Shown one piece after another: positions 40,839 to 47,479 of a stretch of 48,205 nt of DNA. The notes under the pieces were generated by a model that saw only the letters and a list, made by a program, of their open reading frames with translations, was not told the origin of the DNA and did not search any database. The number at the start of each line of letters is the position of its first letter. The first letter of the stretch is position 1. Location of the stretch: NCBI GenBank assembly GCA_017447625.1, contig JAFSNB010000004.1, positions 1-48,205 of the forward strand, in the 5' to 3' direction. A program made the translations under genes and the position numbers. This stretch comes from Bacteroidaceae bacterium (GTDB taxonomy: Bacteria > Bacteroidota > Bacteroidia > Bacteroidales > Bacteroidaceae).

Positions 40839-40871
40839 TTTGTGGCTTTTCACAGAAAAGCCTTATCTTTG
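40839..40871 (+). promoter_or_regulatory. Strong promoter with operator-like palindrome in its spacer
   Basis: TTTG (40839-40842), 21 bases, TATCTTTG (40864-40871): a full Bacteroidetes promoter with no protein gene behind it. The spacer is filled by an inverted repeat, GGCTTTT (40844-40850) and AAAAGCC (40856-40862), a likely repressor site. Transcription should start near 40878. A second box TACCTTTG lies upstream at 40747-40754 with no -33 element seen. Confidence 0.65.
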
Positions 40872-40877
40872 CCCCGT

Positions 40878-41210
40878 CCTAACCCGAAAAGTGGAGGCAA
40901 TAAAGCCTTTCGAGGCTTGAAAAGCCGAGACCGGGAGGGTGGGACACTACATATTAAAAAGGCGTTATCGCGCTTTGTTTTTGGTCTTCGAAACTTCCAC
41001 AATCGAATAACGGTCAAGAACATAGCAGAGGTAACTGCCACGGGGTGTGTATATCAGACTCCGTAGTGTGCTGCGAGGCTCGCGTAGCCTCAACGCACAC
41101 TTTACGGTGTATCTATATACTCCTTTGTGGGTGTTTCTCTGTCTGTTTACCGTTAAGGCTGTGGAAGGCCTCGAAGACAAACAGGCAGATGAAAGCACCC
41201 ACGTTTTTTG
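40878..41210 (+). ncRNA. Candidate structured RNA gene, ~330 nt
   Basis: The 930-base gap 40560-41490 has no convincing protein gene. From the promoter at 40839-40871 to a strong terminator at 41127-41210 the sequence is dense in paired segments. A hairpin AAGCCT-TTCG-AGGCTT (40903-40918) is enclosed by a weak outer stem (~40875/40940). A long arm 40984-41014 is complementary to 41149-41178 (8+8+7 pairs, two internal loops). Inside it a rod formed by 41038-41071 and 41095-41130 is capped by GTGTGC/GCACAC and GAGGCT/AGCCTC stems. The terminator stem (41127-41148 with 41179-41202, then T6) has a 30-base loop that is exactly the 41149-41178 segment. I do not recognise it as 6S, tmRNA, RNase P or SRP RNA. 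Apparent frames over it (40842-41066, 41045-41227) are probably shadows. Confidence 0.55.
41127..41210 (+). terminator. Terminator with a long complementary loop
   Basis: GTGGGTGTTT...CTGTCTGTTT (41127-41148) pairs with 41179-41202 over about 21 base pairs with two bulges, then GTTTTTTG. The 30-base loop is the reverse complement of the upstream segment 40984-41014, allowing a pseudoknot or a competing fold. Confidence 0.75.
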
Positions 41211-41349
41211 TATGTAGTAACAGATAGTAATAATTGTTCGTATGGGTGAAGGCGGACACTATAAAAGTACGAACTAACGACAAAGGAATAATAACGAGTT
41301 TTTGACATCCTTGATTTGACTGATTAACCAGAACTTGCACTAAATATTT

Positions 41350-41489
41350 ACATCAGTCGGACAAGCAATTGGATGTTTGCGCTCATACGGGCGTGGACTG
41401 TTGGATTGTTGTCTGATGTGGGCTGTGCAAGGCCTTGGTTAAACACATCTCTTCCACGCCCCCTTTTCAAAACGAAGAGAGGGCTTTTT
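41350..41489 (+). promoter_or_regulatory. Leader of the methyltransferase operon with competing hairpins
   Basis: Three helices overlap. A: ACATCAG (41350-41356) with CTGATGT (41413-41419), extended by ACAAGCAAT/ATTGTTGT. B: GGGCGTGGA (41389-41397) with TCCACGCCC (41453-41461). T: 41458-41468 with 41474-41484 (10 of 11 pairs, one G-U), five-base loop, then T5 ending one base before the ATG at 41491. B and T share 41458-41461, so they exclude each other. T also hides GAGAGGG, the only Shine-Dalgarno-like sequence. This looks like a switch between read-through and termination or blocked translation. An additional inverted repeat GTTCGTA/TACGAAC lies at 41236-41274. Confidence 0.5.
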
Positions 41490-41490
41490 C

Positions 41491-42489
41491 ATGTCAAAGA
41501 AGAAATTACACAAATTACCCCAACATGATATTATTAGAGTTTTTGAGGGTTTCGCAGGTTATGGTGGAGCTTCTTTTGGATTAAAACGTTCCGGCCTGAA
41601 CTATCAGGTAATAGGAATGTCCGAGTTTAATCCATTTGCCAGCAAATTACTCGAAGCAAATTTCCCTAAAATAAGGAATTGGGGAGATATCACAAAGATA
41701 GATCCAAAGGATTTGCCTGATTTCGATATGTTTACGGGAGGTTTCCCTTGCCAACCATTTTCATCAGCAGGAATGCAGATGGGTGAAGATGACAGATATG
41801 GTAGAGGAACGCTTTTCTATGAGATAATGAGGATTCTGAAGGAGAAACGTCCCCGATATCTCTTATTGGAAAACGTCAAGGGATTTACAGCTAAGAAATT
41901 TGAACCTACAAGAAATCGAATAAAGGAGATTCTACGCGAACTTGGTTATGGTGAACTCCAGTACGCGATCCTTAATTCGTGCGATTATGGTATTCCCCAA
42001 AATCGTGAAAGAATATGGATGTTTGCAATGTTAGGTGGAGTCCCTGAAGGATTCAACATCGTTCCACCTAAAATTAGGCTGACTAAAAGATTTGGTGACT
42101 TTTTGGATAAGAATGCTCCATCATACCTCTATCTGTCTCAGGCACAAATAGCTCATCTAAAGGAGAAACATCATATAGATTCTTTTGTAGTTGAGGAACC
42201 ACTTTGCTTTGATGTATACAATAAGAAAATAAAGACTAATGCCTTGAGTATAACTATCACACAGCCTGAGCATAATAGTCTTCGAGTTGTTGAAGTTCCC
42301 AAAGAAGATGGTTTGGAGATCGTTAGAAAGATGTCTGTTGATGAACAGTTTAGGTTTATGGGATTTGAGGATGGTGAATTGAATTATGCCGGTCAGTCTT
42401 ATTCCCAATTATCTACAAGAGCAGGTAATGGATGGGATGTGAATTTGGTAGGAATATTATTAAATCATATATTTAGTCAGTTGTTATGA
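41491..42489 (+). CDS. C5-cytosine DNA methyltransferase
   Basis: A 332-residue enzyme that adds a methyl group to C5 of cytosine in a specific sequence. Motif I FEGFAGYGGASFGL (18-31), motif IV GGFPCQPFSSAG with catalytic Cys87, motif VI LLENVKG (126-131), motif VIII QNRERIW (170-176). The target-recognition segment is ~200-270, and motifs IX-X lie at the end (FRFMGFEDGELN, STRAGNGWDVNLVG). Complete. Its stop overlaps the start of the McrB-like gene (ATGA). Codon use and base composition are AT-richer than the housekeeping genes upstream, consistent with transfer. It presumably protects self DNA from the nuclease of the next two genes. Recognition sequence cannot be predicted. Confidence 0.95.
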   Translation: MSKKKLHKLPQHDIIRVFEGFAGYGGASFGLKRSGLNYQVIGMSEFNPFASKLLEANFPKIRNWGDITKIDPKDLPDFDMFTGGFPCQPFSSAGMQMGEDDRYGRGTLFYEIMRILKEKRPRYLLLENVKGFTAKKFEPTRNRIKEILRELGYGELQYAILNSCDYGIPQNRERIWMFAMLGGVPEGFNIVPPKIRLTKRFGDFLDKNAPSYLYLSQAQIAHLKEKHHIDSFVVEEPLCFDVYNKKIKTNALSITITQPEHNSLRVVEVPKEDGLEIVRKMSVDEQFRFMGFEDGELNYAGQSYSQLSTRAGNGWDVNLVGILLNHIFSQLL

Positions 42490-44312
42490 AAATAGATTTA
42501 GGCTCATTTGCTTTTGGTTCATCAGTTTCAAGTGGAGGTAATACTCCATCATGGGGAACATCCCTTGGTCAGATTAAGCCAGACCTTAAGCTTACTTATC
42601 CTGGTTATGATAATATAGTCATAGGAATGGTAAATAAATCTATTCCAGTAGATAAGGTTTTTATTCCACTAGGAAAAGGTGGTCATGTATGTAATAGCCT
42701 TGAAGATGAAGGAATTTTGCTTGCTGCTCTATTTGATAAGGTATATATCAATGAGATAAAGGTGAACGCTCCATTCATAATGCTTATATACAAGGAAAGT
42801 TCCGATAGTTGGGCAGGAAGAAAAACACTAAAGTATAGTGTGAAAATAGAATACCGAAGGAATAGAAATGACATTGTCTATAATTCGAATTTTGTAATTG
42901 CAGCAAGAAAGGCACTTCATCTAGCCGATAATGCATGTTGGGTAATTAGTGATATGTTTATCTTGAACCAAGATGAGTTGCATATGATTGCTGGTATCGT
43001 AAATCCCAATCAATCAGAGACCTATCCTACAACTGAGTCGCGAAAAGCAGCTTTTATTAATGCAATAAAAACTACGTTTGATGAAAATCCACATTTTAAA
43101 CAAAAATATTTAAATGATCAATTAAATGAATCTTTAATAATACAGGAACAACCTACAGCAGCATCCGCCTACAGACCTTACATTACAGCCATCAAATCCA
43201 AGCCATTCCTTTTGCTAGCAGGCATCTCTGGAACAGGTAAGAGTCGTATTGTGCGCGAGTTAGCTCGTGCTTGTTGGGATGAGGGAAGTGAAGAATACGA
43301 AGCGCAGAAACCGAAGAACTTTGAAATGGTGCAGGTGAAGCCTAATTGGCATGATTCGAGTGAGCTGATAGGTTATGTTAGTCGTGTAAGTGGGGAGCCC
43401 GTTTATGTTGCAGGCGACTTTCTGAAGTTTGTAGCAAGAGCTTGGGAAGAACCCGAAGTGCCCTATTTCCTTTGTTTGGACGAAATGAATTTGGCTCCTG
43501 TGGAACAGTATTTTGCTGAGTATTTAAGTGTGGTGGAAAGTAGAAAAGCGGACGAACACGGTAAAATAGTTACAGACCCAATATTAAAGAAGAGCAAAGA
43601 GGATTGGTATCGTGTTTTAACGAGTGAGTTGACAGATTATGACGAGGTACGCAATCGTTTTCTTGAAGAAGGTATTTGCATTCCACAAAACTTGATAGTA
43701 ATTGGAACTGTCAATATGGACGAGACCACTTTCTCATTCTCACGTAAGGTGCTTGACAGAGCTATGACAATAGAGATGAATGAGGTTGATTTGGATGGCG
43801 GTCTTGAAGATAAGTATGAATATATAGGGAAACTTGGCGCCGCAGAACTGATAGGAAATGCTGTGGAGGGAGTTGATATTTACTCTTCTTACAAGGCTGT
43901 CTGCGATACGGTTATCGATTACCTTAAGAAGATAAATGAGAAACTTGAGGGGACTCCTTTCAAGATTGCCTATCGTACTAGAAATGAAGTACTCCTATAT
44001 GTTGTAAACAATCTGCCGTATAATCGGATTGAAGGTGATGATGAGTCAACCTATAAGGAGGAATTCGTTATCGCCCGTGCACTAGACGAGATAACCAACA
44101 TGAAAATACTCTCACGTATTGAAGGTGATGAATCTAAAGTAAGCGAAGCGTTCTTACAGGATTTAAAAGAGACGATAAGAGACGGCTTACTATCCGTGTC
44201 TGACGAACTTTTCGATGAAGACGAAGACGGCATATATACTTCCATTTCCATCGCCAAATTAGACGAGATGAAAAAGCGTCTTACTTCTGGCTATACAAGT
44301 TTTTGGAGCTAA
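42486..44312 (+). CDS. McrB-like AAA+ ATPase of a restriction system
   Basis: A 608-residue protein. The first ~210 residues are a separate domain without recognised family, probably DNA recognition. Then an McrB-type AAA+ motor: Walker A GISGTGKS (246-253), Walker B FLCLDEMN (328-335), and TVNMDETTFSFSRKVLDRA (409-427), where the NMDE segment corresponds to the MNxxD signature of McrB GTPases and the end to the arginine-finger region. A helical lid and acidic tail follow. It overlaps the methyltransferase by 4 bases and ends directly at the nuclease gene, so the three are one operon. By analogy with McrBC and LlaJI it powers translocation for the nuclease partner. GTP preference is an assumption. 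Confidence 0.88.
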   Translation: MKIDLGSFAFGSSVSSGGNTPSWGTSLGQIKPDLKLTYPGYDNIVIGMVNKSIPVDKVFIPLGKGGHVCNSLEDEGILLAALFDKVYINEIKVNAPFIMLIYKESSDSWAGRKTLKYSVKIEYRRNRNDIVYNSNFVIAARKALHLADNACWVISDMFILNQDELHMIAGIVNPNQSETYPTTESRKAAFINAIKTTFDENPHFKQKYLNDQLNESLIIQEQPTAASAYRPYITAIKSKPFLLLAGISGTGKSRIVRELARACWDEGSEEYEAQKPKNFEMVQVKPNWHDSSELIGYVSRVSGEPVYVAGDFLKFVARAWEEPEVPYFLCLDEMNLAPVEQYFAEYLSVVESRKADEHGKIVTDPILKKSKEDWYRVLTSELTDYDEVRNRFLEEGICIPQNLIVIGTVNMDETTFSFSRKVLDRAMTIEMNEVDLDGGLEDKYEYIGKLGAAELIGNAVEGVDIYSSYKAVCDTVIDYLKKINEKLEGTPFKIAYRTRNEVLLYVVNNLPYNRIEGDDESTYKEEFVIARALDEITNMKILSRIEGDESKVSEAFLQDLKETIRDGLLSVSDELFDEDEDGIYTSISIAKLDEMKKRLTSGYTSFWS

Positions 44313-44318
44313 TTGTCT

Positions 44319-46490
44319 ATGGAACTGCTGACGATACAACACGAGGACTTCACGATGTATGTGGAGTGTTCGAAGTATGAAGCCATCTGGGAAAAGGCTG
44401 TAAGGAATGTGGGCGAAGAGAATCTGCTCACTACTTACACTTGGACGGATGGCGTGAAGTCAGCTACGATTGGCGATGAGCCATTAGAGAATGGTAGTCA
44501 GGCAAGGGCGGTGTTTTTTGATAATGCAGAATATCCCATCTGGGTGGAGTTTGGAAAGCATGTGAGCAAGGCCCAGTTCGGATCGATTATCCAAGCAGAT
44601 AATGACAGGTTCAGCTTCAGAGGCCATACTTTAGCTGGCTTTATCAATTATGGCAATGAGATAGGCCGGAGCGAGCTACAGCTGGTATATAATATAGGTA
44701 AGGAACAACGACACTTCAAGTTAGGTTATGAGGTACTGAGTACCAAACTTAATTATCACGAGCATTGGAAGAAAATCATCGAGGACATTGAGGCGGAATA
44801 TCGCATGTTGTCGCTCGACTACATGAAGCGAACTTTTCATGGCTTCTCGCCCGATACGACAGGCGACACTCCTGAACTGATATGGTGGAGCATCTTTGCT
44901 GGTGAACAGGAGAAGTTTGTGAAGGCTTGCCGCAGTATAATAGAACGACCTCGTCGCAGACTAAGAGGCTATGAGGTCTATTTGAGGGCAGACAAACTGA
45001 AGCGTGTTCCTGCAAACATAGAAAACGAGCTGGCTGAACACAGACGAGAGCAGGGGCATCTGTATCGTATAGAAGAACATATTCAGTCGAACGACACACA
45101 GGAAAACCGCTTCCTTAAATATGCATTGGGTGAGATTACGACTAAATACGAAACGCTGAAACGGCGCATAGAGGCCATTAGGGGTGTAGGAAACTCTTTG
45201 CATGAGGAAATGAATACGATGCTCGTCACGTTAAAACATTTGCAACGCAACCCGTTCTTCAGAACCGTGGGAAGGTTCAAGGGCTTGACTCAAGAGAGTC
45301 TTGTGCTACAAAGAGCCACAGGTTATAGTCAGGTGTATAGGACTTGGAACTTGTTGCGCAGGGCTTATTCGTTGAATGATGGAATATACAGGCTGCAATC
45401 AAAGGACATCGCTACGCTCTACGAGATATGGTGCTTTATCGAGGTTAGTCATATCGTCAAGGAACAACTGGGCTTAGACGTTGATGTTGACCACCGTAAC
45501 CGCATGGAGATGAACGGGGTATTCACTTGGGAATTAGGCAAAGGGGAACATTCACGAATCTTATTCAGGAAGGATGGCGTGGAGATGGCAGAACTTGTCT
45601 ATAACCCTAAGCATACAGAAAAGGAGAACGACTCCATCAGTATGGAGCACCTTGTGGTTCCTACCGTTCCCCAAAAGCCTGATATCGTGCTACAACTGAC
45701 CAAGGACGATATTGAGAAAGGCATGAAGATGACATATCTTTTCGATGCCAAATATCGTATTAACGACAGAACCAGCGAAGGAGTGGATACACCTCCTGAC
45801 GATGCCATAAACCAAATGCACCGCTATAGGGATGCCATTTATTATAGGGAAAACAAAGAGGGAGAGACAGGCTTGAAGAAGGAGATTATTGGCGGATATA
45901 TCCTTTTCCCCGGTAATGGTGACCCCTTGGAAGTGGCTAAGGCCAAGTTCCAGCAATCGCTCGATGAAGTAAACATAGGTGCTTTCCCGTTGAGACCCAA
46001 AGATGAGGAGAACAGAAAGCTATTGGAGAATTTTATTGCGGAATTGATTGGAAAAGCCTCAACGGAAATCCTTGGCTGCAGCATACCGCAGAAAGGATTG
46101 TTCTATACGCCTGTAGAACCAAAGGATGCTGTATATATGATACTCACGCTTGACGATAAAGCCAATAGCGATGTCCATGCAATACTGGAAGGACGTGCAA
46201 ATGTTATCATTATGGGGAAAAAGGGCATTGAGGAAACAAAGGACATACAAACTATCCGATACATTGCGCCTATAATACCTGGTGGACATATTGAAGGATA
46301 CTATAGAGTTGAAAAGGCAAATCTCGTACGTGTGAATGATGCAGATTATCCCATTCGAATCAAGTTTGATGTTTGCGATTGGGTAAAATTGGAGCGTTCA
46401 GCGAAGTTCGGAATGTCGAAATGGGCTTTTCGGGGTGTATGCAAAACGCATGAAGAATTCTTCAAACATTGCAATGAACATGCAATTTAA
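44319..46490 (+). CDS. McrC/LlaJI-like PD-(D/E)xK restriction nuclease (DUF2357-like)
   Basis: A 723-residue protein; I start at ATG 44319, six bases after the preceding stop. The N-terminal half is beta- then helix-rich and resembles DUF2357 restriction proteins (YRTWNLLRRAYSLNDGIYRLQSKDIATLYEIWCFIEV is typical). The nuclease core has KPDIVLQ with Asp455 and YLFDAKYR with Asp476-Ala-Lys478, followed by AINQMHRYRDAIYY, the PD-(D/E)xK arrangement of McrC-type enzymes. A C-terminal ~150-residue domain (VYMILTLDDKANSDVHAILEGRAN...) is unfamiliar and might read DNA. With the McrB-like ATPase it should form the restriction complex. A DinJ-type gene follows after 114 bases with its own promoter. 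Confidence 0.88.
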   Translation: MELLTIQHEDFTMYVECSKYEAIWEKAVRNVGEENLLTTYTWTDGVKSATIGDEPLENGSQARAVFFDNAEYPIWVEFGKHVSKAQFGSIIQADNDRFSFRGHTLAGFINYGNEIGRSELQLVYNIGKEQRHFKLGYEVLSTKLNYHEHWKKIIEDIEAEYRMLSLDYMKRTFHGFSPDTTGDTPELIWWSIFAGEQEKFVKACRSIIERPRRRLRGYEVYLRADKLKRVPANIENELAEHRREQGHLYRIEEHIQSNDTQENRFLKYALGEITTKYETLKRRIEAIRGVGNSLHEEMNTMLVTLKHLQRNPFFRTVGRFKGLTQESLVLQRATGYSQVYRTWNLLRRAYSLNDGIYRLQSKDIATLYEIWCFIEVSHIVKEQLGLDVDVDHRNRMEMNGVFTWELGKGEHSRILFRKDGVEMAELVYNPKHTEKENDSISMEHLVVPTVPQKPDIVLQLTKDDIEKGMKMTYLFDAKYRINDRTSEGVDTPPDDAINQMHRYRDAIYYRENKEGETGLKKEIIGGYILFPGNGDPLEVAKAKFQQSLDEVNIGAFPLRPKDEENRKLLENFIAELIGKASTEILGCSIPQKGLFYTPVEPKDAVYMILTLDDKANSDVHAILEGRANVIIMGKKGIEETKDIQTIRYIAPIIPGGHIEGYYRVEKANLVRVNDADYPIRIKFDVCDWVKLERSAKFGMSKWAFRGVCKTHEEFFKHCNEHAI

Positions 46491-46921: not shown

Positions 46922-47479
46922 ATGGACAAACTCACACCACAGCAGCGGCATAAGAATATGGCGGCTATTCGATCGAAAGATACGAAGCCGGAGATGATTG
47001 TGCGACGTGGGCTGTGGAAGAGAGGGTTCAGATACAGGCTTAACCATAAGCGGTTACCTGGGCACCCGGACTTGGTGCTGAGGAAATATAGGACATGTAT
47101 CTTCGTGAATGGATGCTTTTGGCATGGACACCAAGTTCAATTCATAATGCAGAATTCACAATGCATAATTGAGAGTTCTGAGTGCTGCAAGATTCCGAAG
47201 ACGAACCGCGAGTTTTGGGTGAATAAGATTCGCAGAAACAAGGAGCGAGACAGCGAAGAACAACGGAAGTTGGCAGAGATGGGTTGGCATTGTATTACAG
47301 TCTGGGAGTGTGAGCTGAAACCATCGAAGCGAGAAGAAACACTGGACTCGATTGCGTTTACTTTAAATCACATCTGGCTGCAAGACCATCACGCCAAGAT
47401 TGTGCAATACCCTTCAATGGATGAAGACGATATACAAATGTCTATGGCTGCAGAAGAAGATGGTGAATACAGAACTTGA
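46922..47479 (+). CDS. vsr: Very short patch repair endonuclease Vsr, with repeat insertion
   Basis: A 185-residue nuclease that nicks next to T:G mismatches left when 5-methylcytosine deaminates; it fits the methyltransferase in the same island. MDKLTPQQRHKNMAAIRSKDTKPEMIVRRGLW is the typical N-terminus; catalytic Asp50 is in LPGHPDLVL; FVNGCFWHGH carries zinc ligand Cys65 and His68/His70. Position 63 is Asn where E. coli Vsr has the active-site His64. Then residues ~72-87 are foreign: they come from AT-rich AATTCATAATGC repeat DNA and separate His70 from the Cys (88/89) expected directly after it. KIPKTNREFWVNKI and WECEL resume the family. The insertion is in frame; activity is uncertain. 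Confidence 0.88.
   Translation: MDKLTPQQRHKNMAAIRSKDTKPEMIVRRGLWKRGFRYRLNHKRLPGHPDLVLRKYRTCIFVNGCFWHGHQVQFIMQNSQCIIESSECCKIPKTNREFWVNKIRRNKERDSEEQRKLAEMGWHCITVWECELKPSKREETLDSIAFTLNHIWLQDHHAKIVQYPSMDEDDIQMSMAAEEDGEYRT
47135..47180. repeat. AATTCATAATGC-type repeat inserted in vsr
   Basis: CAATTCATAATGC, AATTCACAATGC and ATAATT words in succession, like those at 34465-34480 and 39757-39783 and inside the M60 gene at 13314-13348. They are translated as QFIMQNSQCII. Confidence 0.8.

Follow-up and report, generated by a model that had tools for sequence, protein, structure and literature searches.

A candidate 5' leader RNA with two competing folds upstream of a restriction-modification operon in Bacteroidaceae

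The window, 48,205 nucleotides of a Bacteroidaceae contig (JAFSNB010000004.1), holds ahead of a restriction-modification (R-M) operon a large structured RNA that is probably a cis-acting 5' leader of this operon working as a strand-exchange attenuator, and that belongs to an RNA family without an Rfam match. Three short segments in the loop of one hairpin (a, b and c) are complementary to three segments in the loop of a putative terminator (c', b' and a'), and pairing between the two loops would draw part of the terminator stem into one long rod. The features are collected in Table 1.

The preliminary description, made from the letters of the window, placed the RNA just upstream of an R-M operon, and the Pfam assignments of the methyltransferase, NTPase and nuclease genes bear this out. 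It also spoke of a full promoter with no protein behind it. A promoter motif is present, of the type TAnnTTTG, which we take to be a -7 promoter motif, and the RNA itself matches no protein family; the operon on the same strand, however, begins at 41491. Transcription would be expected to start near 40878, and TAnnTTTG does not recur between the T-run and the methyltransferase gene (41210-41490). Protein coding by the RNA region was considered and rejected, as the open reading frames of 74 and 77 amino acids found there match no Pfam family and the homologs preserve base pairs through double changes. A tRNA and tmRNA search of the region returned none.

Table 1. Features of the two leader units and the operon (positions in the window)
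Feature	Position	Strand	Description	Basis
-7 promoter motif	40864-40871	+	TATCTTTG, Bacteroidota type	sequence
Whole leader	40876-41218	+	read as 5' leader of the R-M operon	sequence analysis
5' domain	40876-40945	+	P1 with inner hairpins; sequence varies among copies	fold; alignment of 26 class A copies
Linker	40947-40954	+	CTACATAT; complementary to 41211-41217 past the T-run	by eye
Hairpin P2	40958-40976	+	AAAGGCG..CGCTTT	invariant in alignment A2; hairpin kept in L004, L012
Hairpin P3	40977-41021	+	GTTTTTG 40977-40983 / CAAGAAC 41015-41021; loop carries a, b, c	
Variable domain P4	41022-41126	+	long hairpin	fold and alignment
Terminator 5' arm	41127-41148	+	inner part alternatively pairs with P3 3' strand and sequence beyond (rod)	
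Terminator loop	41149-41178	+	c', b', a'	swap tests, covariation
Terminator 3' arm and T6	41179-41209	+	41179-41202 in stem; T6 41204-41209	
a / a'	40984-40991 / 41171-41178		8 bases; P3 loop with terminator loop	
b / b'	40994-41001 / 41160-41167		8 bases; P3 loop with terminator loop	
c / c'	41008-41014 / 41149-41155		7 bases; P3 loop with terminator loop	
Second leader unit	41304-41489	+	same architecture as first	12-sequence alignment A5
Second unit a / a'	41324-41330 / 41436-41442	+		
Second unit b / b'	41334-41340 / 41425-41431	+		
Second unit c / c'	41350-41355 / 41414-41419	+		
Second unit outer stem	41390-41397 / 41453-41460	+	followed by T4 41464-41467	
Second unit final hairpin		+	with T5 41485-41489, immediately 5' of the start codon	
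C5-cytosine DNA methyltransferase	41491-42489	+	operon gene 1	Pfam PF00145, E 5e-59
AAA-family NTPase	42486-44312	+	presumably McrB-like	Pfam AAA_5; PADLOC PDC-M26A
DUF2357 + PD-(D/E)XK nuclease	44313-46490	+	presumed restriction subunit	Pfam
Vsr mismatch endonuclease	46922-47479	+		Pfam, PADLOC

The dense set of stems and the terminator with its T-run, which had been noted at the outset, were found at the same positions. Folding of a 333-nt stretch gave -128.5 kcal/mol (z -6.8), and 0 of 100 shuffles folded equally well. The complementarity of the terminator loop to 40984-41014 is likewise confirmed, in the three segments a, b and c, and exceeds chance in the swap tests described below. A pattern of the P2 hairpin returned at least 118 stretches among genome contigs, of which L034 (inside a coding frame), L113 and L114 were dropped as likely chance and several others end at contig ends. 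The invariance of P2 in alignment A2 is due to its use as the search pattern; in L004 and L012, which were found by BLAST, a hairpin with different stem letters is seen by eye at the P2 position. In 97 of 99 parsed copies the terminator stem is followed by a T-run of at least four bases, the exceptions being L033 and L112. In the window, and in many copies as judged by eye, the stretch past the T-run is complementary to the 5' linker, which is beyond what a simple terminator explains; the linker helix gave a weak result in the swap test (own -6.0 versus others -4.8 kcal/mol).

The pairing of the two loops is specific to each copy. Among 100 copies, the copy's own 3' region was the strictly best partner in comparison with unrelated copies in 95 (mean -38.4 for own versus -21.8 kcal/mol for others). 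When the comparison was trimmed to a-b-c against c'-b'-a', the own partner was among the best 5% in all 97 copies and strictly best in 87 of them, with energies of -27.1 for own and -11.3 kcal/mol for swapped partners. The contrast was less sharp for the terminator arms (-27.1 versus -21.7 kcal/mol) and for the rod extension through the inner terminator arm (-10.7 versus -8.2 kcal/mol), because the sequence is conserved there. P3, the linker helix and a possible downstream anti-terminator-arm pairing were near the swapped level. The inner terminator arm fits both of its rival partners better in its own copy than after swapping.

Covariation was assessed in 26 leaders of class A, to which the window's copy belongs; for class B copies the pairing was assessed through swaps only. 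In the class A alignment 86.8% of cells are paired, compared with 78.0% in shuffles, and 22 of 46 pairs have changed in both partners (a mean of 14.1 in shuffles, with none of 500 reaching 22), amounting to 121 doubly changed cells against 49.8 in shuffles. Sliding the structures along the alignment lowers pairing to 40-46%. The preliminary description had looked to compensatory changes in both the rod and the terminator stems for support. They are strong in the rod, with seven doubly changed pairs in helix a, five in b and seven in c (74.8%, 86.3% and 83.0% of cells paired), and only slight in the terminator stems, where 3 of 16 pairs have double changes and 89.6% and 94.4% of cells are paired. 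P3 has no doubly changed pair in this count (91.8% of cells paired) and 2 of 7 in another (86.6%). The scarcity of double changes in the terminator stems and P3 is explained by sequence conservation. RNAalifold on the core alignment, which does not contain a'-b'-c', returned P2 only.

In nested folding of 97 copies the rod was dominant, defined as more than 10 expected pairs, in 83, the terminator in 12 and neither in 2. The two folds cross and therefore never co-occur in such a calculation, so that their mutual exclusion is not independent evidence; nested folding leaves pseudoknots unscored, and a pseudoknot could combine the rod with the outer stem of the terminator. Energies of the two states, estimated by folding their pieces separately, were -98.9 kcal/mol for the rod (-85.1 with a shuffled loop) and -93.1 kcal/mol for the terminator with P3 (-87.2 with a shuffled 3' arm), with the rod favoured in 78 of the 97 copies. 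The folds are nearly isoenergetic in class A, where the rod-terminator difference is -0.8 kcal/mol (sd 4.2), and lie about 1.0 kcal/mol apart in the window's copy. The mean rod advantage is 7.1 (sd 4.9) in class B1 and 9.5 kcal/mol (sd 4.6) in class B2; outside class A a switch would therefore need a push. An early suggestion of either a pseudoknotted end or two exclusive folds is thus upheld in the form of competing rod and terminator folds, supported by pairing and covariation.

These sequences provide what an attenuator would need, namely an inner arm with two partners, a T-run in 97 of 99 copies and covariation, and a fold switch can be proposed from the pairings and energies. Once transcription has begun, P2 and P3 would form first, with a-b-c held inside the P3 loop. 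The emerging terminator 5' arm and loop would then pair with the P3 3' strand and a-b-c to give one long rod, which would withdraw the inner 5' arm from the terminator and let RNA polymerase continue (antitermination). With the rod blocked or displaced, the terminator stem would form in full together with P3, transcription would stop at T6 and an RNA of about 330 nt would be released. The promoter motif, the pairings, the covariation, the doubly used inner arm, the strand linkage and the tandem unit are apparent from sequence analysis; termination at the T-run in the cell, antitermination by the rod and the choice of fold by a signal are presumed. Candidates for that signal would be a protein, a small molecule, the speed of the polymerase or chance folding.

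It is rather unlikely that the RNA instead alters RNA polymerase in cis so that later terminators are read through (processive antitermination, of which we take the put RNA and the EAR element to be examples). Such a function would suit the very long first open reading frames at some loci (up to 2458 amino acids), the mainly upstream position of the promoter motif and the large, structured leader, but the T-run behind nearly every terminator stem is a requirement of an attenuator. No regulator was found. The antiterminator family UpxY, considered as one and rejected, shows no association with the RNA: it exceeds the family cut-off in 8 of the 12 genomes that carry the RNA and in 60 of the 106 that do not, and the four RNA-carrying genomes in which it does not reach the cut-off include the window's own (73% complete).

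An unlikely reading is also that of a single static pseudoknot, made of the rod and the outer terminator stem, which would protect or process the 5' end of the mRNA without any switch, for example as a substrate of a double-stranded RNase or as a stability element. The preference for the rod in 78 of 97 copies agrees with it, and the outer stem and the rod could form jointly, a point on which nested folding cannot judge. A static structure would not, however, account for an inner terminator arm that is complementary to both rival partners, and more so in its own copy than after swapping, nor for the nearly isoenergetic states of class A.

The preliminary description took the RNA to be an autonomous gene, and the context of the copies speaks against this. 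The first downstream open reading frame lies on the strand of the RNA in all 96 loci kept, and in 98 of 100 before four were dropped (L034, L113, L114, and L123 with a 79-aa minus-strand frame overlapping a longer plus-strand one); the frames were taken from our own picker, not from annotation, with a minimum of 70 aa, and frames shorter than 130 aa were left out if they began no more than 330 nt from P2. Upstream, a frame is on the same strand in 56 of 87 loci, and no gene family is shared by more than 2 of 55, among the best 25 of 77 families. In 81 of 94 copies TAnnTTTG occurs at a distance of 45-135 nt upstream of P2, compared with 25 of 513 control windows. It is found within 90 nt past the T-run in 3 of 94 copies, and anywhere from the T-run to the first frame in 6 of 79. 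With a same-strand frame downstream and the motif before the RNA and seldom after it, as in a cis-regulatory leader, the transcript of the downstream gene most likely must pass the T-run. The RNA is thus most likely the start of the operon's mRNA, and on this sequence evidence its role as a leader is well supported.

Class A is moreover tied to R-M genes, which follow it in 24 of 25 loci. A C5 methyltransferase is downstream in 21 of the 25, the window included; the other four have a D12 methyltransferase (L020), an N6/N4 methyltransferase (L047), a TdeIII endonuclease (L126) and a frame without a Pfam match (L072). In four truncated copies (L010, L051, L064 and L183) the promoter, linker and P2 are retained and a frame starts 37-197 nt past P2, with fusion points that differ. 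Pfam assigns defence-like genes to three of these, a C5 methyltransferase in L064, an Eco57I/N6 methylase in L183 and an AAA_15 ATPase in L051, and by our own reading a DUF1016-like gene follows in L010. The truncated copies hold weak complements of a-b-c (-9.5 to -12.4; in L183 -21.0, overlapping its gene). In L116 and L076 the 3' half is also missing and no frame lies that close. The truncations would fit a terminator half that is a negative element and can be lost.

A trans-acting small RNA of its own is accordingly very unlikely, given the strand linkage, the rarity of the motif between T-run and frame, the R-M genes behind class A and the genes close to P2 in the truncated copies. It would have in its favour the promoter motif, the terminator-like end and the likely product of about 330 nt. 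A transcript of that size is equally expected from premature termination of a leader and would by itself be no proof of autonomy. For a replicating RNA, also raised at first, nothing was found in that direction. As regards a retron ncRNA, which would have a reverse transcriptase gene next to it, no reverse transcriptase occurs among the best 25 of 56 Pfam families of the 96 first downstream proteins or among nine proteins of the window. Hardly any weight can be given to the idea that the element is a site where defence cassettes integrate or recombine and that its symmetry acts on the DNA. This would suit the diverse cargo behind one element and the truncated copies before defence-like genes, but not the varying fusion points, the changes that keep RNA pairs (G-U included), the steady distance of the promoter motif, or the lack of any match when three leaders were compared with phage or plasmid records.

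The leader of the R-M operon extends into a second unit. The suggestion that the operon's own leader could also switch folds finds its counterpart here, in a stretch that repeats the a-b-c / c'-b'-a' architecture and would repeat the decision ahead of the start codon. Across 12 sequences 97.2% of cells are paired, including every cell of helices a, b and c (100%). In 11 of 42 pairs both partners have changed, more than in any of 500 shuffles, and 25 cells are doubly changed, compared with 6.7 in shuffles. No double change was seen in these sequences in the outer stem (0 of 8 pairs) or in the P3-like stem. At L073, where the methyltransferase is 95% identical to that of the window, a/a' and b/b' of the second unit have changed with compensation. 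Some class A loci have such tandem units. The covariance model built on the second unit (R2) weakly recognises the other type of second unit in L054, L115, L092 and L101 (E 3e-4 to 0.02). Across the order it matches 4 of 118 genomes; at one of these matches, L190, a second unit stands in front of an open reading frame with no first unit before it. Two weak matches, L191 and L192 (E 4e-4 and 8e-4), show by eye a three-segment loop code of very different sequence and a T-run, and from these the architecture may be wider than the models detect.

The proposed leader has parallels among known systems. Trp-type attenuators consist of a chain of segments with alternative partners that form a terminator or an antiterminator before the first gene, and this is the likeness to the present RNA. 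Here, in contrast, antitermination would fall to a long rod in which three segments pair with the loop of the terminator itself, units stand in tandem in part of class A, and no conserved start codon for a leader peptide was seen by eye in the 5' domain. Riboswitches and T-box leaders are, like this RNA, large structured 5' leaders with a terminator-like final stem; the present family differs in having no Rfam match, downstream genes without an obvious common metabolic pathway, and pairing segments that diverge yet remain complementary. UpxY-dependent leaders belong to capsule operons of Bacteroides and share with the present copies the Bacteroidales setting and leader control of phage- and host-facing genes, but here no link to UpxY presence was found and one UpxY match occurs among the 96 first downstream proteins. 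EAR and put are likewise structured cis RNAs, standing ahead of long transcription units; to our knowledge neither has its own terminator at the end, whereas this leader ends in a terminator-like stem, and it has no Rfam match.

The impression that the RNA fits no known class was confirmed with Rfam 15, including 6S and Bacteroidales-1: no family reaches its gathering score in the window, where permissive thresholds gave chance-level matches only, and in 17 homologous loci the search found four tRNAs and one abiF RNA beside a copy and nothing inside the copies. Copies are distributed patchily, with their centre in Bacteroidales. By BLAST, 7 of 61 relatives match, two of them (G010 and G039) over the promoter region only, as do 12 of 393 genomes of the order, one of them (G189) through a 24-nt match that is probably chance. 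A covariance model of the P2-P3 core (R1, 70 sequences) has matches in 12 of 119 genomes at the level of the order and in 2 of 296 at that of the phylum (the window's own included). Among relatives it matches 11 of 26, and all 11 belong to the window's genus, which is represented by 16 genomes; the large searches applied stricter filters and lost weak copies. R1 matches up to 10 places in one genome, and four in that of the window (weakest E 2e-4). Among cultured species, Prevotella communis and Paraprevotella clara carry copies. Viral contigs gave 0 matches to one P2 pattern. Among the 80 pattern matches listed with titles, 78 carry Bacteroidales-type names, some of which we presume to belong to that order, and two Firmicutes or Lachnospiraceae. 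The latter copies, L031 and L096, may reflect a binning error or possibly transfer. In the open-access literature, as far as its accessible text extends and with PMC7366714 included, nothing was recognised as this RNA. PMC8040213 reports thousands of candidate RNAs, an unnamed one of which may overlap it.

The cargo of the class B copies is more varied. Class B1 (CTTTGGTTTT; 32 loci) precedes proteins with ResIII (6), DEAD (6), SNF2 (5), PLD-like (3), MmeI methyltransferase (2), DUF4007 (1) and PAPS reductase (1) matches, overlaps being possible, and also leucine-rich repeat, subtilase and signal-peptide proteins. Behind class B2 (CTTTGTTCTT, plus four unassigned copies; 36 loci), Ig-like Big_2 domains and leucine-rich repeats occur three times each and the rest are scattered, and many first proteins begin like secreted proteins. 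Signal-peptide-like starts were counted in 7 of 25 class A, 12 of 32 class B1 and 24 of 36 class B2 loci (Fisher p 0.03 for B1 against B2), a crude census that flags some methyltransferases too. Defence cargo for B1 and surface cargo for B2 are trends only. In five B2-like loci (L016, L111, L120, L148 and L167) short secreted proteins carry, by eye, a similar charged KERQEL-like stretch and possibly form one family.

Tentatively, the copies could make up a large new family of bistable leader RNAs through which Bacteroidales commonly control the genes that face phages (R-M, other defence and surface proteins), with a private three-part self-complementary code in each copy and units that can be stacked as a two-step gate. 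If so, the near-balanced folds of the R-M class may let defence vary from cell to cell with no DNA inversion, or may alternatively sense infection through RNA polymerase. A multi-copy leader family before R-M operons, unmatched in Rfam, would bring up control of defence at the RNA level in gut Bacteroidales. Segments that diverge and still match themselves are an unusual natural case of copy-specific RNA pairs, and the switch is testable through paired compensatory mutants.

The abiF RNA mentioned above (RF03085; L022:1254-1290, forward strand) lies ahead of an Abi_2 gene (1309-2208) and adjoins, back to back, a class B1 copy whose own downstream gene encodes a UvrD-like helicase, so that two defence-linked RNAs are found together at this locus.
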